DNA of 64,000 nt from NCBI RefSeq assembly GCF_013409595.1, contig NZ_JACCBD010000001.1:3348001-3412000 (forward strand), written 5' to 3'. Positions 55,346 through 64,000 of this stretch are shown one piece after another (the first letter of the stretch is position 1; the number at the start of each line of letters is the position of its first letter). A program made the translations under genes and the position numbers. The DNA is from Leucobacter aridicollis (GTDB lineage: Bacteria; Actinomycetota; Actinomycetes; Actinomycetales; Microbacteriaceae). The notes below the pieces were generated by a model, which ran no database searches, was not told the DNA's origin, and worked only from the letters and a program-made list of their open reading frames with translations.

Positions 55346-55918
55346 TTCTTGGGGATAAGTTGTGGAATCTGGACCCATGACCGGCCGTCACGCCACTGGG
55401 TCGCACGGCACCGGGCCGCCCGGCGCCAAGGCCGCTGGGGCACTGGGCCCACTGCGCCAGGGGCACTGGGGCACTGGGGCACTGGCTCGCTAGGGCTCGA
55501 AGCCGCGGGCCGCCATGCCTAATGCCTCCTCCCCGGGCCCCCGCTCCCCGGACGCCTCGCCTCCGCTCCCGGGCACCCGCCCCGCTCCCGTGCCCCCTCC
55601 GCCCCACTGTCGGGCCCCCTCCGCCCCACTGTCAGGCCCCCGCCACCCCCGCCACTGCACACGAATCCTGCAACTGCACACGTAATTTCGCGTTATTAAG
55701 GTGTGTTCTTGCGGGAAACGTGTACGCCGGCGGATGCTGATGACCCGGGCAAGGCTGAGATCGGGCAAGGCAGGCCGCGGGGGCAAGGCAGGCCTCGGGA
55801 GCAAGGCGGGAAGAACCGGGGCAGGCAGGCCCACGCGCGGCGCGGCGCGAGCTGGAGCCGCTGCGTGCCGCGATGCCCAGGCAGTCCAGCCCCAGAATCG
55901 ACTCCAGGCCCCAAACGC
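55346..55918. repeat. Gene-free low-complexity region
   Basis: About 570 bp of repeats: GGGGCACTG units at about 55432-55485, and a 20-bp segment GCCCCCTCCGCCCCACTGTC at 55592 and again at 55614. Short frames have no ribosome site or motif. Confidence 0.6.
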
Positions 55919-55956
55919 AAAATGCCCGGCCAGACTTTCGTCTGGCCGGGCATTTT
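55919..55956 (-). terminator. Terminator of tRNA-Tyr
   Basis: 16-bp stem AAAATGCCCGGCCAGA (55919-55934) with 55941-55956 and a six-base loop, four bases beyond the tRNA CCA end. Confidence 0.9.
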
Positions 55957-55960
55957 CAGG

Positions 55961-56044
55961 TGGTGGCGGGTGCGTGATTCGAACACGCGAAGCTTACGCG
56001 TCTGATTTACAGTCAGATCCCTTTGGCCGCTCGGGCAACCCGCC
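55961..56044 (-). tRNA. tRNA-Tyr (GTA)
   Basis: Class II tRNA with a long variable arm. Acceptor GGCGGGT/ACCCGCC, anticodon loop CTGTAAA (anticodon GTA) in stem TCTGA/TCAGA, T-arm CGTGTTCGAATCACG. The 3' CCA is encoded at 55961-55963. Confidence 0.96.
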
Positions 56045-56138
56045 TCGGTTGCGTTACCACAACCAAGGAATAACACTACCGGCAGATCGGTCCGAACGGA
56101 AATCGAAACGCGCCCAATTCTCGTGCAAAGATCAATGC

Positions 56139-56651
56139 ATGCCCACTCTTTCACCCGAGTACACCGTCCACTGGGCCCGCGGTCTCGATGAGCTGCCGGT
56201 GCGCACGTTCCACGACATCGCGAAGCTGCGGCAGGAGGTCTTTGTCGTCGAGCAGGACTGCGTCTACCTCGATCTCGACGGCCGTGATCTCGAGCCAACA
56301 ACCGAGCAGTTCTGGGTGACCTACGATCCCGTGGTCGAGGTCGATCATCCCACCGAGTCACCAGCCGAGCGCCGCGAACCGACCGTCGCGGCAACGCTGC
56401 GCGTGCTCGATGAGGGTGGGCGCGAGCCGGGGATGCGGGCAATCGGCCGCGTCGTGACGTGCCCGCAGCACCGAGGCAAAGCGCTCGCGGCCGCGCTCAT
56501 GGAGGCGGTGCTCGCGACGCACGGCGCCGAACCGCTCGTGCTCGAGGCGCAGTCCCACCTCACCGGCTGGTACGGCAGGTTCGGGTTCGAAGTCGCTGGC
56601 GACGAATACCTCGAGGACGGCATTCCGCACACCCCGATGCGGCGCGGCTAG
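56139..56651 (+). CDS. GNAT acetyltransferase, ElaA type
   Basis: 170 residues from the ATG at 56139 (weak ribosome site). LRQEVFVVEQDCVYLDLDGRD (about 30-50; R-x-E-V-F-V-V-E-Q) is diagnostic for ElaA, and RVVTCPQHRGKALAAALMEAVL (about 103-124) is the acetyl-CoA pyrophosphate loop (Q-x-x-R-G-K/x-A). Y-x-x-F-G-F near 150 completes the fold. The substrate is unknown. It starts about 95 bp from tRNA-Tyr on the opposite strand. Confidence 0.86.
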   Translation: MPTLSPEYTVHWARGLDELPVRTFHDIAKLRQEVFVVEQDCVYLDLDGRDLEPTTEQFWVTYDPVVEVDHPTESPAERREPTVAATLRVLDEGGREPGMRAIGRVVTCPQHRGKALAAALMEAVLATHGAEPLVLEAQSHLTGWYGRFGFEVAGDEYLEDGIPHTPMRRG

Positions 56652-56753: not shown

Positions 56754-57386
56754 CTACCTTTCGAGCCCGTACCCCTCGAGCCTGTCGAGCCAGGCATCGG
56801 CCGTCGCGTCGTCAAACGGCGCGACCTGCGCCCTGACGCGCGCCTCGAGGTCGAGAGCGAGGTGTTCCAACCGGTCCATGACGTCGCGCGGATAGCCGAA
56901 TAGTGCGGCGTGCTCCGCCCACTCGTCTCGGTCGTCCACCCAGGTGCCGCGCTCCCCCTCGACCCGCACCACGTCGAGGTCCATGTCGATGCCGGTGACA
57001 AGCTCAGGGGTGTCCGTCCATTCGACATCCCACCCGAGGTCGATGTAGATGCGCATGCCCTTCCGGTGATTGCGGTTCACCGTCAGCGCGAAGTCAGGAT
57101 GCGGGATCCCCGCGCCCTCGAACGCAGACCCCGGGCCGGCCGCCGGCACGAGGGTGACGCTCGCACCACCGACCGCGTAGGCCCGTCCCGGCCGGGCGCT
57201 CCCCCAGCCCGTCGGTTGTCCGACCCAGTCGCCCCACTTGTCGGACCCGAGGTAGACGCACTCGTGTCGCCAGTGCGGTGAGCCATCCCACTTTCGCCAC
57301 TGGAAGATCATCAGGGTGCCTGGTGTTGGTCGCGACGTGTGCACAGGGGCGAGTCTAGCGAGGCTCGTCGCCGCGCTCATCAGCAA
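56754..57386 (-). CDS. DUF402 domain protein
   Basis: 210 residues. The start is uncertain, since the first 25 residues resemble unsupported upstream sequence and the family core begins near MIFQWRKWDGSPHWRHECVY. MRIYIDLGWDVEWTDTPELV (about 112-130) and the Asp/Glu pair in DMDLDVVRVEG are the DUF402 metal-binding core, found in nucleoside-diphosphatases such as Ntdp and in the FomD-like fold. It may hydrolyse nucleoside diphosphates or diphosphate esters. No operon. Confidence 0.82.
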   Translation of the reverse strand: MLMSAATSLARLAPVHTSRPTPGTLMIFQWRKWDGSPHWRHECVYLGSDKWGDWVGQPTGWGSARPGRAYAVGGASVTLVPAAGPGSAFEGAGIPHPDFALTVNRNHRKGMRIYIDLGWDVEWTDTPELVTGIDMDLDVVRVEGERGTWVDDRDEWAEHAALFGYPRDVMDRLEHLALDLEARVRAQVAPFDDATADAWLDRLEGYGLER

Positions 57387-57452: not shown

Positions 57453-60400
57453 CTAATCGAGCAGCGCGTCGAGGCCTGGCGCACGCTCGGCGAGGCCGTG
57501 CCGCTCCGCCCGCACCGAAATCGACTGCTCGCGCAGCAGCGTCAGGAGTTCGACGGGGCCCGCCATCGTCACGGGCTCGGCCCAGAGGGCGGCCCGGTCG
57601 AGCCCGCCCATCCATTCCGCAACGCGAACGCGTTCGCCACCGATGAGCCGCACCCGCGCCGCGTCAGAACCACCAGGGCCGCGCGGCCCCTCGGCTGCGA
57701 GCCGCTCAAGCCAGTGCTCGTCGCGTTCGAGGGAGACGTCGATGCCCTGCGAGGCGAGAAGGTCGCTGACGGCCTGCGGCAGCACGACGCCAGTCGAGAC
57801 CGCAACGGGTGCGCGCACGAGCAGCGCGGCAGCGAGCACCCTGACGAGCCCGGCGAGCGCCCCGTCCTCTGCCAGCCGCACCTGCACCACGACCGGGGCC
57901 GTGCGGAGGGCGTTGCGCTCAATCCCGAGCCCGATGCCATCGGCGATCGCGCCAAGGTCCGTCTGCCAGGTGAGCTGGTCGGCGAGCGCCGCCCTGCGGA
58001 GCTCATCGAAGTCTTCGTAGTCGAGCGCGGGCTGCGCGGCCTCGATGAGCAGCGCGACCTCAGGCGCGAGACCCCTGAGGTGCAGGGTGTCGCTGCGCTG
58101 CCCCGAGCGCCGCTCCCAGGATCCCTGCGCGACGAGCCAGTGCGGGCCGCCGCCGAGCGCTGGCAGCCCCATGACCGCGTCGTTCCAGCCGCCGAACGGC
58201 TGCCGCTCGACCCGTGCTGCGCTGCTCGCCCGGTTCACCGACACCGAGGCCGCCTCGATGCCCGCGAGCCAGGATCGGACTTCGCCGTCATCCCACGACT
58301 GGATGGCGGCGACGGCACCGCTGCCCGCGGCGTTCTGCTGCGATACTGCCTCGCCGAGCAGCTGGGCGGTGCTGATCCCGATGACGGGGAGCCCGCGGGC
58401 GTCGTCCCAGAACGGTGACCCTGGTGCCACGCCGAGTCGCACTCCGGGCCGCCACAGCAGCCCCTCGTCGTCGAGCTGCTCGGGGGCCACGAGCCATTCC
58501 TCGCCCGGCGCGAGTTCCGTGAGCGCGGCGAGGCCTGCCGCACTCGGGGCTGCGGGGAGCGGACCGATATCGAAGGCGAGCGGGTCGTCGCCGAGCGGTC
58601 GCGCCGAATCGCCGACGCGGAGGCGCCGCACGGCGTCGGCGAGCGCGCTCCGGAAGCCCCGAGAACGGGCGACGCTCGCGAGCAGGACGACCATGTTTGT
58701 GCTGCCGAGCGACGTCTGCGCGCCGCGGAAGGCGGAGTCGATAATGTCGGGGATCGCCCGCTCCCGCTCGGCGGATGGGGTGACGAGCACCGAACCTCGC
58801 GCCGTGAAGTGGCCCTCGACGCGGAGGTCTGGGCGGTGCCGGGCGAGCGCCCGACCGAGCTCGCGCTCACCGAGCACGACTGCGCGGTCGACGTGCGGGC
58901 TCGCGCCGAGCTCGGCGAACGCCTCGTCGCCCGCGACGCTCACCGTTTCGACCGCGCCGGGGGTGAGCCCGCCGACCTCCCACTCCTCGACGCAGGACGT
59001 TGCCGCGTCGAGCATGCCGGGCGAGACGGCCCAGAGCGCGCCCGCGCCGCTGCCGAGCACTGCAAGGACCGCAGCGGCCTGGGTCGCGAGCGGCGCCGTG
59101 AGGTCGCCGACCACGAGTACGAGCCTGTCGGGCACAAACGTCGCGCCGCGCACCACGCGGAGCCCGTCAGCGAGCTGGGCGGCGTACCGAGCGGAGTCGA
59201 TGATGTGGTTGACCGCGGCGTCGAGCTCTCGCATCGGCGCGCCGGTGCTCGCGGCGAGGTCCGTGATGAGGCGGTCGCGGGCCGCCGCGGTAGCGAGCGC
59301 GACGCGGCGGAGCCTGACGGCGCGGCCCTCGTGCCGGAGGTCCGACCAGCGCTGCGCTGCCTCGCGCGCGGCGGTCACGGCGGCATCAGGATCGAGGTCT
59401 GCCTGCGTCAACGCGATGGTCTCGTCGAGCCGTTCGCCGCGCAGCGCGATCTCGCCGGCCTGTCGGAGCAGCCCGCGGGCCCACTCCCGGTTCGCGGCAA
59501 GGCTGCCGTCGGTCGGCGGCTCGTTCGCGAATCCGGTGCGCGAGACGACCGGGATCGCGTGCTGCGGCGCGACGGCCTCGAGCACGACCTCGCCGGTGGC
59601 GTTGCGCGCCAGGCCGAGCACGGCGGCGGTCAGGCCGCCGGTGTCGTGGGTCGCCGGCTCGTCGGGGGCGCGGTAGAAGAGCGCGCTGTCGCGCTCCGTC
59701 GGATCCCACTCGCGGGCGCGCTGCTGCGTTCGGTGGCTCGCCGCGGGCGGTTCGGCGGCGAGTGCGATGGCGTCGCGGAAGACCTCGGCGGACACGTGGG
59801 TCGGTTCAGGATCGGCCGCCTCAGCGAGGAGCCCGACGAGGTACCCAAGGACCTCCGCGTACTCCCCCTTCGGGGTGACTGGCAACCGCAGTCGCACATC
59901 CGGCACGCCGTGCTCGTCGTTCACGAGCGCGGCGGCGAGCCCCGGCGCGAGACCGCACCTGAGTTGGAGCCCGAACAGCCTGTCCGAGCCGAGCTCGGTC
60001 GCAGCGGCGACGGTCGCCGCAGCGACGAGCGGATCCTCTGTGGCGATAACCGGTCGCAGCACCGACGCACGGCTCGGCTGCAGCGCGACCTCGATGAGCC
60101 GCAGAAGCTGGGCCGTGCGCTCGGTCGTGTCCTCGATGACGGCGACGGGCAACCCGCTCTGGATCGAGGCGACCCGCTCGGCCGCCGCGACATCACCGAG
60201 TCCGATCACGACGTCGACGGGCGCGCCACCGTCGGCGACCCGCCGGCGCGCGAAGCGGTGGATCGCGGCATAGGTTTCCCACGAGTCGGGGAGCTCAGCG
60301 AAGAGGCGCACCCCGACCTCGAGCCTGTCGAGTTCGGAGCAGCCGAAGGCGCGGGTGAGAAACTCAGTCAGCCGCTTCGCCCAGATCGTGTCGCGTGGCT

Positions 60401-61094
60401 CGATGACGAGCCGCACGCCGTGTTCGAGCGCCGCTTCGAGAATCGGGCGCGCCCGCTCGATCGCGAGCGTGAGGTCCGCCTCGATGCTCCACTCGTCGGC
60501 GCCAGGGGCGAGACGCGCAGGATCAAACGCGAGCTCCCGAACGGCAGGGTGTGCCGCGAGGGTGAGCAGGCGTTCGACCTCACGCTTGCCGCCGGACTCG
60601 CCGAACACCTGGGCGCCATGGAGCGCGACGAGCACCGAGTTGCCCCGCTCCCGGTGGGCCCGGATCGCCTCGGTGAGCGCGGTCATGCGCCCGGCGAGCT
60701 TGAGCTGGAGCAGCACGTCGGGAAGCCTGCCGAGGAGGTTCTTGCGCGCCGCGGGCCGCACAACCCACGGCAGCCCGAGCGAGGCGACGCCGCCGGCGCG
60801 AAGCAGCAGCCTGTCGCGCGTTGGCATGCTCTCGGGCAGTTCGCCCCGCGAGACGCCGCGCAGCCCGACGGCCGCGGTAAACGCGTCGGAGGTCCCGAAC
60901 AGCGAATCGACGAGACGGCGGGTGAAGTCGAGACTTTCGGGGCTCGTCGCGAGCTCACCGAGCAGGCCGCCGCGTGGCGTGTGCTGGCCGTCACCGCCGG
61001 CCGTGGACACGCTCTCCCAGGCGCTGACGCGCTCGTGCGCGGCCTCTGCGACAGACTCCCACACCGACACGACGTTCACCTGCTCGTCTCTCAT
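57453..61094 (-). CDS. PutA homologue (proline dehydrogenase / P5C dehydrogenase) with both active sites apparently lost
   Basis: 1213 residues, normal length for actinobacterial bifunctional PutA, uninterrupted and with normal high-GC codons. The order is intact: PRODH barrel (about 130-430), linker, ALDH domain (about 480-980), C-terminal domain. GGAPVDV, RPDLR, VNRASS and RQPFGGW (963-970) align well. Key residues differ: the FAD/catalytic block RLVKGA reads VIGLGD (296-301), the substrate motif YLxRRLxEN reads YLVGLLAEA (418-426), the ALDH catalytic Glu is His 762 and the catalytic Cys of GQKCSA is Leu 796. It should catalyse neither step of proline oxidation. A regulatory, scaffold or nucleotide-sensing role is possible; which is unknown. 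Confidence 0.78.
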   Translation of the reverse strand: MRDEQVNVVSVWESVAEAAHERVSAWESVSTAGGDGQHTPRGGLLGELATSPESLDFTRRLVDSLFGTSDAFTAAVGLRGVSRGELPESMPTRDRLLLRAGGVASLGLPWVVRPAARKNLLGRLPDVLLQLKLAGRMTALTEAIRAHRERGNSVLVALHGAQVFGESGGKREVERLLTLAAHPAVRELAFDPARLAPGADEWSIEADLTLAIERARPILEAALEHGVRLVIEPRDTIWAKRLTEFLTRAFGCSELDRLEVGVRLFAELPDSWETYAAIHRFARRRVADGGAPVDVVIGLGDVAAAERVASIQSGLPVAVIEDTTERTAQLLRLIEVALQPSRASVLRPVIATEDPLVAAATVAAATELGSDRLFGLQLRCGLAPGLAAALVNDEHGVPDVRLRLPVTPKGEYAEVLGYLVGLLAEAADPEPTHVSAEVFRDAIALAAEPPAASHRTQQRAREWDPTERDSALFYRAPDEPATHDTGGLTAAVLGLARNATGEVVLEAVAPQHAIPVVSRTGFANEPPTDGSLAANREWARGLLRQAGEIALRGERLDETIALTQADLDPDAAVTAAREAAQRWSDLRHEGRAVRLRRVALATAAARDRLITDLAASTGAPMRELDAAVNHIIDSARYAAQLADGLRVVRGATFVPDRLVLVVGDLTAPLATQAAAVLAVLGSGAGALWAVSPGMLDAATSCVEEWEVGGLTPGAVETVSVAGDEAFAELGASPHVDRAVVLGERELGRALARHRPDLRVEGHFTARGSVLVTPSAERERAIPDIIDSAFRGAQTSLGSTNMVVLLASVARSRGFRSALADAVRRLRVGDSARPLGDDPLAFDIGPLPAAPSAAGLAALTELAPGEEWLVAPEQLDDEGLLWRPGVRLGVAPGSPFWDDARGLPVIGISTAQLLGEAVSQQNAAGSGAVAAIQSWDDGEVRSWLAGIEAASVSVNRASSAARVERQPFGGWNDAVMGLPALGGGPHWLVAQGSWERRSGQRSDTLHLRGLAPEVALLIEAAQPALDYEDFDELRRAALADQLTWQTDLGAIADGIGLGIERNALRTAPVVVQVRLAEDGALAGLVRVLAAALLVRAPVAVSTGVVLPQAVSDLLASQGIDVSLERDEHWLERLAAEGPRGPGGSDAARVRLIGGERVRVAEWMGGLDRAALWAEPVTMAGPVELLTLLREQSISVRAERHGLAERAPGLDALLD

Positions 61095-61138
61095 GACCCC
61101 ACTCTAGGGCTGGCTCCTCGCGAAACCCCGTGAACACG

Positions 61139-61176
61139 CGAACGCCCCGCGCACCTTTCGGCGGGCGGGGCGTTCG
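61139..61176 (-). terminator. Terminator of the ABC-importer substrate-binding gene
   Basis: 12-bp stem CGAACGCCCCGC (61139-61150) with 61165-61176, just beyond the stop of the substrate-binding protein and before the PutA-like gene. Confidence 0.75.
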
Positions 61177-61193
61177 AACCGGAGACTCCGGAG

Positions 61194-62186
61194 TTATTCG
61201 ACCTTTTCGGCCTCGGCGAGGATCGCCTCGGGGATGGTTGCGCCCATCCGCTCCGCGGCCCCCTCGTTCACGACGTACGCGAACTCGTTCGACACCTCGA
61301 CTGGCATGGTCGCAGGGTCAGCGCCCTCGAGCACCTTCAGCGCCATCTCGCCGGTCTGGTAGCCGAGCTTCGTGTAGTCGATGCCGAGCGTGATGACCGC
61401 GCCGCTCTCGACGGTGCCGGCCTCTGCGCCGATGACGGGGATCTGCTTGTCTTCAGCGACCTGCACGAGCGATGCGATGCCGGCGACGACCATGTTGTCG
61501 GTCGGCACGTAGATCGCGTCGACGTCTCCGAGCGCCTCGGTTGCCGCGGCGATGTCGTTCGCCGTGGTGACGGTCTTCGTGACGACCTCGAGCCCCAGCG
61601 GGCCAGCTGCCTCGGTCACGGCATCGACCTGCACCTGCGAGTTGACCTCGCCCGATGCGTACACGATGCCGACCTTCTTCGCGCCGGGGGCGACCTCCTT
61701 GAGCAGCGCGAGCTGCGCATCGAAGGGCGCGAGGTCGCTGGTGCCGGTGACGTTGCCGCCGGGCGCCTCGTTCGACTCGACGAGCTGGCCCTCGACCGCG
61801 TCGGTGACGGCGGTGAAGAGGATCGGCTTGTCGGTGATTGCCTGTGCCGCGGTCTGCGCAGCGGGCGTCGCCACCGCGAGCACGAGGTCGAGGTCTGAGG
61901 AGGCAAAGCCCTGCGCGATGGTGACGGCGGTCGCCTGATCGCCGTTCGCGTTCTGATCGTCCCACTCGACGTCGACGCCCGCGTCGTCAAACGCCTGCTT
62001 GAAGCCGGCGGTGGCTGCGTCGAGCGCGGGGTGCTGCACGAACTGGCTCACACCGATCTTGTACGAGGCCTTCGCCTCATCACCCGAGTCGGTTGCGGCG
62101 GGGCTGGAGCAGGCGCTCAGCGTGAGCGCAGCGGCGGCGAGGCCGGCGAGCGCGATGCCTGAGCGGCGGAACGAGGTCAGTCGCAT
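61194..62186 (-). CDS. ABC transporter substrate-binding lipoprotein (TrpX/YvfK type)
   Basis: 330 residues from the ATG at 62186, giving a lipoprotein signal (SFRRSGIALAGLAAAALTLSAC, lipobox LSAC). A periplasmic-binding-like fold follows, with IGVSQFVQHPALDAATAGF near 45, PILFTAVTDAVEGQLV near 125, KKVGIVYASGEVNSQVQ near 165 and IYVPTDNMVVAGI near 215: the ABC_sub_bind (TrpX) group, linked in other bacteria to tryptophan or purine-like substrates. Third gene of the importer cluster with ATPase and permease upstream; the 165-bp gap before it may hold a second promoter. Confidence 0.89.
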   Translation of the reverse strand: MRLTSFRRSGIALAGLAAAALTLSACSSPAATDSGDEAKASYKIGVSQFVQHPALDAATAGFKQAFDDAGVDVEWDDQNANGDQATAVTIAQGFASSDLDLVLAVATPAAQTAAQAITDKPILFTAVTDAVEGQLVESNEAPGGNVTGTSDLAPFDAQLALLKEVAPGAKKVGIVYASGEVNSQVQVDAVTEAAGPLGLEVVTKTVTTANDIAAATEALGDVDAIYVPTDNMVVAGIASLVQVAEDKQIPVIGAEAGTVESGAVITLGIDYTKLGYQTGEMALKVLEGADPATMPVEVSNEFAYVVNEGAAERMGATIPEAILAEAEKVE

Positions 62187-62351
62187 AGTAAAACGGTCCT
62201 TCGTGAATGTGCCGCTGCAACACCGCAACGGCAGGGGAAAACGGCAAGGGCTTTGCTGTTTCCAGCATCGTACCCCGGGAGCCCCACCCGCTCACTCGCA
62301 CTGCGGTGCAACAGTTACGGAAACGAGACGGGGCGTGGCAGAGCGCGGGCG

Positions 62352-63143
62352 CTACGCCAACAGCGCGCGGTCGTCGAAGCTCGCGCCCTTGATCTTCGCG
62401 AACTCCGCGAGCAGCATCGGCACGGTGAGCTTCGACTTCTCCTCGGCGTTCGCCTCGAACACGATCCGGCCCTCGTGCATCATGACGAGCCGGTTGCCGA
62501 GTGTGATCGCCTGCTCCATGTTGTGGGTCACCATGAGCGTCGTGAGGTTGCCCTCCGAGACGATGCGCTCGGTGAGCGTCGTCACGAGCGCGGCGCGCTG
62601 AGGGTCGAGCGCTGCCGTGTGCTCGTCGAGCAGCAGGATCCGCGGCTGGGTGAACCCAGCCATGAGCAGCGACAGCGCCTGGCGTTGACCGCCGGAGAGC
62701 AGACCAACCTTCGCGGTGAGGCGGTTCTCGAGCCCGAGTTCGAGCGACTCGAGCTCAGTGGCGAACGCCTCGCGGCGGGCCTTCGTGATGCCGCGGTGCA
62801 GCCCGCGGCGCTTGCCGCGCTGCAGGGCGAGGGCGAGGTTCTGCTCGATGGTGAGGTCGGGCGCCGTGCCAGCCATCGGATCCTGGAAGACGCGGCCGAC
62901 GTAGCGGGCACGCTTGAATTCCTTCAGCTTCGAGACGGATGCGCCGTCGATCCTGATCTCGCCCGCGTCGATCGGATAGCGGCCCGAGATCGTATTCAAC
63001 AGCGTGGACTTCCCCGCGCCGTTGGAGCCGATCACCGTGACGAAATCGCCCTCGGCGAGCTCCAGATTGAGGTCGACCAACGCGCGGCGCTCGTTGACGG
63101 TGCCGGCGAAGAACGTCTTCGAAATGTTCGCGATACTCAGCAT
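62352..63143 (-). CDS. ABC transporter ATP-binding protein
   Basis: 263 residues. Walker A GSNGAGKSTLL (about 38-48), Q-loop FQDPMAGTAP near 90, signature LLSGGQRQALSL (about 148-159; S-G-G-Q), Walker B ILLLDEHTAALDP (about 169-181) and switch His near 205 (VTHNMEQA). All motifs are intact. The gene begins two bases after the permease stop. It powers the importer with the permease and the TrpX-type binding protein. Confidence 0.94.
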   Translation of the reverse strand: MLSIANISKTFFAGTVNERRALVDLNLELAEGDFVTVIGSNGAGKSTLLNTISGRYPIDAGEIRIDGASVSKLKEFKRARYVGRVFQDPMAGTAPDLTIEQNLALALQRGKRRGLHRGITKARREAFATELESLELGLENRLTAKVGLLSGGQRQALSLLMAGFTQPRILLLDEHTAALDPQRAALVTTLTERIVSEGNLTTLMVTHNMEQAITLGNRLVMMHEGRIVFEANAEEKSKLTVPMLLAEFAKIKGASFDDRALLA

Positions 63144-63145
63144 GA

Positions 63146-64000
63146 TTACGCTCCCGTCGTCGCGGCCGGCGCCGGCTGGGTCAAGGTGTCGGAGCGCTTG
63201 TTCCCGCGGTTCTTGAACGACGGGATGCGCTTCAGGAAGCCCCAGCGCGGCAGCAGCAGCGCCGCGATCACGAGCAGGGCGGTCATGAGCTTCATGTCGT
63301 CCTGGTTGAAGCCGATGCGCAGCGCGCCGAAGATGATGATGCGGTACAGCACCGCGCCGACGACCACCGCGAGGGTGGCGAGCCAGATCCAGCGCTGCCC
63401 GAGGAGCGCCTGGCCGAGGATCACGGAGGCGAGCCCGACGAGGATCACGCCGATGCCCATGCTGATGTCGGCGACGCCGTTGTACTGCGCAATGAGCGCG
63501 CCCGCGAGGCCGACGAGGCCGTTCGAGAGCGACAGGGTGAGGATCTTCATGCCGTCGGTGTTCACGCCGAACGAGCGGATCATCTGCTCGTTGTTGCCCG
63601 TCGCCTGGATCGCGAGGCCGAGATCGGTCGACAGGAACCAGTCCACGAGCAGCTTGATCGCGAACACCACCACGAGGAAGATCAGCACGACATACCAGGT
63701 CTTGCCCATCCAGCCGGCCTCACGCAGCGGGCTGATGAGCGTCTCCTCGCGGAGGAACGGGAGATTTGATTTCCCCATGATGCGCAGGTTGATCGACCAG
63801 AGCGCGATCATCGTGAGGATGCCGGCCAGCAGCCCGTCGATCTTGCCCTTCGTGTGCAGGATGCCGGTGATCGCGCCCGCGATCATGCCCGTGACGCCGC
63901 CCGCGAGCGTCGCCAGCAGCGGACTCTGGCCCGCGTGGATGAGGGCGGCTGCGGTCGCGGCGCCCGTCGTGAGGCTGCCGTCGACCGTGAGATCCGGGAA
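63146..64000 (-). CDS. ABC transporter permease (partial, runs past window end)
   Basis: The frame is open to the window edge, where codons read FPDLTVDGSLTTGAATAAAL, the conserved N-terminal block of branched-chain/TrpY-type permeases, so the start is outside. Seven or more hydrophobic segments are visible in the part present, ending with a basic tail (KRIPSFKNRGNKRSD). Partner of the ATPase, 2 bp away. Its N-terminus is missing by truncation only. Confidence 0.88.
   Translation of the reverse strand, partial: FPDLTVDGSLTTGAATAAALIHAGQSPLLATLAGGVTGMIAGAITGILHTKGKIDGLLAGILTMIALWSINLRIMGKSNLPFLREETLISPLREAGWMGKTWYVVLIFLVVVFAIKLLVDWFLSTDLGLAIQATGNNEQMIRSFGVNTDGMKILTLSLSNGLVGLAGALIAQYNGVADISMGIGVILVGLASVILGQALLGQRWIWLATLAVVVGAVLYRIIIFGALRIGFNQDDMKLMTALLVIAALLLPRWGFLKRIPSFKNRGNKRSDTLTQPAPAATTGA

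Follow-up and report, generated by a model that had tools for sequence, protein, structure and literature searches.

Why would a genus of bacteria keep a 1200-residue enzyme that has lost the residues of its pair of consecutive active sites as well as those of its two cofactor sites? The question is raised by a gene in a 64,000-nucleotide stretch of the Leucobacter aridicollis genome (Microbacteriaceae; assembly GCF_013409595.1, contig NZ_JACCBD010000001.1, positions 3,348,001 to 3,412,000), which we call the window. The gene, here named pseudo-PutA, encodes a relative of the type-B proline-catabolism protein PutA, in which a proline dehydrogenase (PRODH) domain is followed by an aldehyde dehydrogenase (ALDH) domain and a C-terminal domain (CTD). 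A first, sequence-only reading of the window had described it as an intact PutA without catalytic residues and suggested selection for another job. In this work we follow the gene through its genus, family and order. Pseudo-PutA very probably persists because it does a job other than proline catabolism, and as a whole it is best explained, with a probability of roughly 0.6, as a non-enzymatic PutA shell that would act as a cytosolic scaffold or regulator by binding protein.

Both active sites are lost across the sampled clade

The reading frame starts with ATG and encodes 1213 residues with no internal stop (Table 1). Its best solved relative is a PutA, PDB 5ux5 (phmmer, E 1.3e-87, over residues 26-430 and 591-1076; a third stretch, residues 1146-1201, is below significance), and a profile of 32 family members reaches the same structure at E 4.1e-162. 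Homology to type-B PutA covers the PRODH, ALDH and C-terminal domains in their usual order, so the description as an uninterrupted, full-length homologue stands. A frameshift or annotation artefact is rejected by the single open frame and by 45 distinct near-full-length relatives.

Family models score the protein poorly. The active PutA of the same genome (L052, at G000:C1:3213507 onward; G and L numbers are our handles for genomes and loci) matches Pfam Pro_dh (PF01619) with 194 bits and Aldedh with 300 bits. In the Pfam scan pseudo-PutA has no Pro_dh match and an Aldedh match of 112 bits; L052 gives the one Pro_dh match elsewhere in the genome. When 32 relatives of pseudo-PutA are scanned singly, Aldedh is found in all and Pro_dh, weakly, in 13 (best 3.8e-11). 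The NCBIfam PutA equivalog NF008869 gives pseudo-PutA 53 bits, under the cut-off of 747, with the active copy not scored as a control. A hydropathy scan finds no clear membrane segment (top 19-residue mean 1.98, at residue 1086 in the CTD).

L052, the second and intact putA that had been proposed as something to look for, serves as the residue reference. Compared with it, the Lys of the PRODH motif VKGAN is Leu299, the His-Asn pair is Glu353-Asp354 and the double Arg is Gly421-Leu422; the ALDH Glu is His762 and the Cys is Leu796. The Asn of PWN, the Lys of KPA and the Glu of EYFGP, which we take to be NAD-site residues, are also replaced. Asp191 stands where active PutA has a Lys, presumably the catalytic general base of PRODH (E. 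coli K329). The substitutions listed by the sequence-only reading are therefore correct. It had also named what would speak against it, namely catalytic residues that are displaced and still present nearby. We can reject this, because the window protein aligns without gaps around the active-site motifs and its only cysteines (252, 380 and 701) are not close to position 796.

These losses are not peculiar to one genome. Our residue survey kept open frames of at least 900 residues whose BLAST match scored 250 bits or more and covered at least 1000 query residues; duplicates were removed and shorter or frame-broken copies excluded. This gave 45 frames nearer to the window protein and 102 nearer to active PutA. 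The PRODH Lys, His and Asn and the ALDH Asn, Lys, Glu, Cys and second Glu are each retained in 0 of the 45; the first Arg of the PRODH pair survives in four and the second in one. Orthologues that share the losses were thus sought and found, and they include every near-full-length member. Among the other 102 frames, all ten checked residues are intact in 97, the exceptions being L181, L061, L279, L034 and L291; L287, which is absent from this list, retains nine.

What has replaced these residues? In the PRODH-like domain several new letters are near-fixed among the 45 (K191D in 42, H353E in 38, N354D in 40 and L379R in 42), and so are W315L (42), G349V (43), H896W (44) and R1180P (43). The letters at the ALDH Glu and Cys vary, being mostly R/H/Q and P/L/A respectively, as would be expected where catalysis is no longer selected. 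Pseudo-PutA is an enzyme homologue without catalytic residues, in other words a candidate pseudoenzyme, and we infer from its sequence that it has no enzyme activity and that the PutA fold is kept.

Conservation has moved away from the catalytic domains

Pseudo-PutA is found in all 54 Leucobacter genomes searched (E 1e-100 or better). The frame at the best hit is at least 1193 residues long in 49 of them, and in G183 and G192 the hit runs to the end of a contig. Across the family, 135 of 150 Microbacteriaceae genomes have some PutA-like match; in this survey the sequences of the better hits only were read, and the members of the dead clade among them come from the genus itself, g6 (Canibacter) and two further genus groups, g47 and g51 (the latter named Leucobacter chinensis at NCBI). 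Scanning contigs for two linker patterns gave 34 loci, every one from Leucobacter or Canibacter. In an order-wide search of 248 genomes, the best-hit loci outside the clade are canonical apart from one His to Gln change; only the loci of best hits were read there, and a dead-clade PutA elsewhere is possible. Pseudo-PutA is a clade with genus-wide presence, and we reject the idea that it is an oddity of the window.

The proposed dN/dS check (ratio of non-synonymous to synonymous substitution rates) points the same way. By the Nei-Gojobori method seven pseudo-PutA pairs give 0.038-0.147, and the active genes, compared between the same genomes, give 0.048-0.103. Most pairs have a high dS (0.24-1.05), which makes the ratios approximate. 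Pseudo-PutA is under purifying selection, and on the ratios and its presence in every genus genome searched it is kept by selection, as expected of a pseudoenzyme. In three of the four pairs that we split by region, the CTD has the lowest dN/dS of the four regions.

A comparison within genomes illustrates where the constraint now lies. The active copy was taken from 22 genomes, of which 19 gave a pseudo copy of more than 1000 residues (two had no locus and one a partial frame). Over these 19 matched pairs, mean column identity in active and pseudo copies is 0.866 and 0.547 for PRODH, 0.826 and 0.608 for ALDH, 0.661 and 0.664 for the linker, and 0.667 and 0.712 for the CTD. Among the four regions, conservation within the pseudo clade is therefore highest in the CTD and lowest in PRODH.

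A wider set has 65 active and 46 pseudo rows, of which the active ones are taxonomically broader and include the own-genome copy twice. There are 97 columns at least 97% invariant in the active rows and kept in fewer than 10% of the pseudo rows; 49 of these fall in PRODH, 45 in ALDH, two in the linker and one in the CTD. At a threshold of at least 93% conservation, the 91 linker columns, many of which are gapped in the active rows, include 30 conserved ones in pseudo rows and 7 in active rows; for the CTD the counts are 73 and 34. The core of the linker carries the pattern EWDPxERDSALFYRAPD...TGGLTAAVLGL. A further 22 PRODH columns are conserved in pseudo rows and different or unconserved in active rows. 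Conservation has dropped in both catalytic domains and has held in linker and CTD. Together with the near-fixed new letters, this looks like repurposing and not plain decay. Because the CTD is the best kept region even though the ALDH residues are gone, the CTD and linker core would seem to serve something else.

Order of loss and candidate functions

Among the relatives of pseudo-PutA some are intact, some partly dead and some fully dead, so that the new function and the sequence of losses can both be put to the test. A maximum-likelihood tree of 38 rows places the nine pseudo rows in one group (100/100 support), and a quick tree of 48 rows returns the same clade. Next to it stands L034 (G019), then the pair L286 (G024) and L287 (G003), with other PutAs beyond; support for the placement of L034 relative to L286 and L287 is modest (83/72, and 97 in the quick tree). 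L286 retains all ten residues, and L287 retains nine, the ALDH Glu alone being gone. In L034 all five ALDH residues are gone, and the PRODH Lys, His, Asn and one Arg are kept. The ALDH residues were probably lost first and the PRODH residues later; as the root is a midpoint root, used for drawing only, we infer this direction from the residue states. Partial decay of PutA is recurrent in the Microbacteriaceae, since three further partly dead PutAs, L061 (G017), L279 (G035) and L291 (G090), sit on separate branches elsewhere in the tree. ALDH residues are affected in all five of these partly dead proteins outside the clade.

We propose that a duplicated type-B Microbacteriaceae PutA lost its proline-to-glutamate catalysis, the ALDH half probably before the PRODH half, and that the resulting non-enzymatic protein was then retained in all sampled genomes of the Leucobacter lineage. 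Its two-domain shell may have been retained as a platform. Its present work would fall to a surface on the linker core and CTD, which most likely binds another protein; pseudo-PutA would then be a cytosolic scaffold or regulator. Two other jobs suggested earlier fare less well. Sensing of proline or pyrroline-5-carboxylate by the old sites is unsupported, as the proline-, FAD- and NAD-site residues are gone. DNA-binding regulation of the ribbon-helix-helix (RHH) type is unsupported too: Pfam finds no such N-terminal domain at E 1, a test specific to that mode of DNA binding, and similarity to PutA starts by residue 26-44.

Several observations weigh against the scaffold proposal. Pseudo-PutA is split over frames in three of the 54 genomes (G160, G168 and G179), and since the assembly of G168 is a single contig and 99% complete, the gene may not be strictly essential. 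The second Canibacter genome sampled, G005, is without pseudo-PutA, its one match being a PutA with all ten residues. The whole linker has a dN/dS of 0.069-0.285 in four pairs, and is the highest region in two of them; in the active gene the linker gives 0.184-0.332. Between close species the whole linker evolves no slower than the rest, so only its core looks constrained. Within the PRODH-like domain, the charged residues that are near-fixed would suit a new ligand site no less than a scaffold, and by sequence new chemistry is possible. Substitutions and frameshifts scattered at random among relatives, which the sequence-only reading had counted as evidence against itself, are seen in part, in the varying ALDH Glu and Cys letters and the three split frames; the other new letters are near-fixed. 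As a separate observation, the split-frame loci L262 (G168), L263 (G160) and L130 could represent either assembly error or real decay.

The main rival is a neo-enzyme or ligand binder, in which the old pockets were rebuilt for another small molecule and Asp191, Glu353-Asp354 and Arg379 form the new site. We regard this as possible, with odds well short of even. It would explain why new letters are near-fixed where active PutAs have Lys, His-Asn and Leu, and it would account for the 22 newly conserved PRODH columns. However, PRODH is the least conserved region of the pseudo clade, and the variable letters at the ALDH Glu and Cys make a common ALDH chemistry unlikely. A more speculative synthesis, which we think rather unlikely, is that an entire two-enzyme catabolic machine became a core protein of the genus, a non-catalytic switch controlled by a ligand or partner. 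The linker core and CTD would be the effector and the charged barrel (the same four residues) the sensor pocket; the switch would be tied to solute uptake through the neighbouring TrpX-like transporter where one is present, and its ALDH-first loss would be readable in the relatives.

Could the transporter itself be the key? Immediately upstream of pseudo-PutA lies a TrpX-like ATP-binding cassette (ABC) set with a substrate-binding protein (SBP) that scores 275 bits against NF041285 TrpX, under the cut-off of 390. Pseudo-PutA might be a cytosolic accessory or sensor of this transporter, an idea we consider doubtful. In its favour, ABC genes are the immediate same-strand upstream neighbours in 20 of the 32 named loci with readable upstream DNA (a count that omits L107 and L124) and lie about 5 kb upstream in two further named loci. 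A second set shows the direct adjacency in 11 of 20 loci, several from the same species, and it extends to G047 and Canibacter (L134, L126). No SBP is close to any of 17 active PutA loci, nor in the loci of the relatives L135 and L288-L291. In the family survey 16 of 150 genomes have the SBP, among them all seven with a recognised pseudo-PutA, and Canibacter G005 has neither. However, nine of these 16, including G019 and G003, are without a recognised pseudo-PutA. The SBP is absent at E 1e-40 from nine of the 54 genus genomes, all of which have pseudo-PutA; five of the nine were tallied as good genomes. The genes are also apart in some genomes (G014, G051). The link is real and not obligate, and may be inherited synteny.

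The DNA between the genes also argues against a simple ABC operon. A TANNNT motif 6-7 nt before the start is the layout of leaderless actinobacterial transcripts. At each locus we took the best such motif preceding a start codon, over a stretch that runs from the upstream stop codon to 150 nt within the match; it lies 6-7 nt 5' of the ATG in 36 of 37 pseudo loci, 26 of them with the exact TACAGT. The active loci give TANNNT before the start in 14 of 17, so only the exact motif and the fixed spacing are telling; TACAGT occurs in three of the 17, and the own-genome active copy has no such motif. Pseudo-PutA probably has its own promoter of this predicted type. A 96-nt stretch containing a strong hairpin, which in the window separates the ABC gene from the predicted promoter, folds at -49 kcal/mol (z -2.94). 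Consensus scans of 60900-62400 find no U tract or intrinsic terminator at the hairpin and no sigma-70 promoter. Being a simple operon member is thus weakened by this layout as well as by the loci without adjacency and the genomes without SBP.

A regulatory or structural subunit of active PutA, in a heteromeric arrangement of the "prozyme" kind, is very improbable. The two proteins belong to the same family and 45 of the 54 genus genomes carry both, counting as active a Pro_dh match better than E 1e-30. However, nine genomes have no such match, and the weak ones in G169, G182, G194 and G199 fall on the pseudo gene itself. Among the 45 good genomes (completeness of 90% or more, contamination of 5% or less), six (G150, G096, G172, G169, G194 and G199) hold pseudo-PutA without a canonical Pro_dh match, in a check that covered Pro_dh matches and not other proline-degrading enzymes. 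Two of these, G169 and G199, are also without the TrpX-like SBP and have pseudo-PutA in one frame. For this reason a simple role as PutA subunit or regulator does not account for pseudo-PutA, which probably works without the active protein. Selection for another job, as first suggested, is borne out by this persistence, by the genus-wide presence and by the dN/dS ratios. Finally, a still unbroken but decaying pseudogene is barely credible, for the drifting catalytic letters and the three split frames are outweighed by the presence in 54 of 54 genomes with 49 long frames, the low dN/dS, and CTD and linker regions no less conserved than those of the active copy.

Table 1. Features of the pseudo-PutA locus, in window coordinates.
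Feature	Position	Strand	Basis or remark
Pseudo-PutA gene	57453..61094	-	1213 codons plus stop; open frame; 5ux5 homology; orthologues genus-wide
PRODH-like domain, residues 44-430	59805..60965	-	alignments; boundaries approximate
Inter-domain linker, residues 431-521	59532..59804	-	alignment
Conserved linker core, residues 455-495, RTQQRAREWDPTERDSALFYRAPDEPATHDTGGLTAAVLGL	59610..59732	-	conserved columns
ALDH-like domain, residues 522-995	58110..59531	-	Pfam Aldedh; alignments
Type-B PutA CTD, residues 996-1213	57456..58109	-	conservation; dN/dS
-10-like TAGAGT, predicted leaderless-type promoter	61101..61106	-	motif scan; 6 nt before ATG (61094)
G+C-rich hairpin, 12 outer and 4 inner pairs	61139..61176	-	between ABC gene and predicted promoter
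TrpX-like ABC SBP	61194..62228	-	PF04392, 276 bits
ABC transporter ATPase	62352..63143	-	PF00005
ABC transporter permease	63146..63886	-	PF02653
DUF402/NtdP-like protein, downstream	56754..57386	-	PF04167, 21.6 bits, under cut-off 23.9
GNAT acetyltransferase, convergent; true start probably inside the frame	55701..56651	+	PF13673

Some further observations concern the neighbourhood. The convergent GNAT gene lies beside pseudo-PutA in 20 of 34 named loci. Tandem copies or near-copies of the TrpX-like ABC set are found upstream of pseudo-PutA in L104, L105, L110, L117 and L262. The SBP match contains one stop codon each in G096, G159, G154, G196, G170 and G197, possibly because the match is over-extended at its N-terminal end. 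Beyond the ABC and GNAT genes, the conserved-neighbour scan returned mostly apparent shadow reading frames, and two more neighbours that we take to be a rhodanese-like and an M13-peptidase-like gene. Ordinary Microbacteriaceae PutA genes (L137-L153; L029 and L035) often have TANNNT 6-7 nt before their start as well.

Comparison with known systems

Pseudo-PutA draws attention to the linker core and CTD as parts of PutA with a possible function in their own right. For annotators, a product like this could easily be labelled as a proline-catabolism enzyme and mislead metabolic models. Inactive PutA is not described in the titles and abstract openings of the literature we searched, in which subscription journals are thinly covered, which makes this weak evidence of novelty.

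With type-B PutA, of which 5ux5 is the best solved relative, pseudo-PutA shares the domain order and a length of about 1200 residues, and its matches are significant over both domains and the beginning of the CTD. It differs in that the checked PRODH, FAD-site, NAD-site and ALDH residues are replaced and in that linker core and CTD are the best kept parts. The CTD of a type-B PutA is reported to contribute to ALDH activity and substrate channelling (PMC5293562). The partly dead PutAs of the family resemble pseudo-PutA in having lost ALDH residues, and at least three of the five come from genomes (G019, G017 and G035) in which another PutA has all ten residues intact. Unlike pseudo-PutA, they have PRODH largely kept in L034, L061 and L287, and all five lie outside the clade.

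Trifunctional PutA repressors keep catalysis, have a non-enzymatic role besides and possess an N-terminal RHH domain (PMC5293562, PMC9132996). A non-enzymatic role within the PutA family, proposed here for pseudo-PutA, is what the two have in common; the RHH domain was not found in the latter by Pfam. The trypanosome prozyme is a dead paralogue of S-adenosylmethionine decarboxylase kept by its host (PMC6221367). It works in complex with an active partner, whereas pseudo-PutA persists without canonical Pro_dh.

A further comparison is with ALDH16A1, which is a human protein and, unlike pseudo-PutA, presumably has no PRODH domain. The two are alike in belonging to the ALDH superfamily and in having lost their catalytic residues, a likeness by description and not by comparison of the sequences. 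ALDH16A1 is a pseudoenzyme thought to act via protein interactions (PMC10650815).

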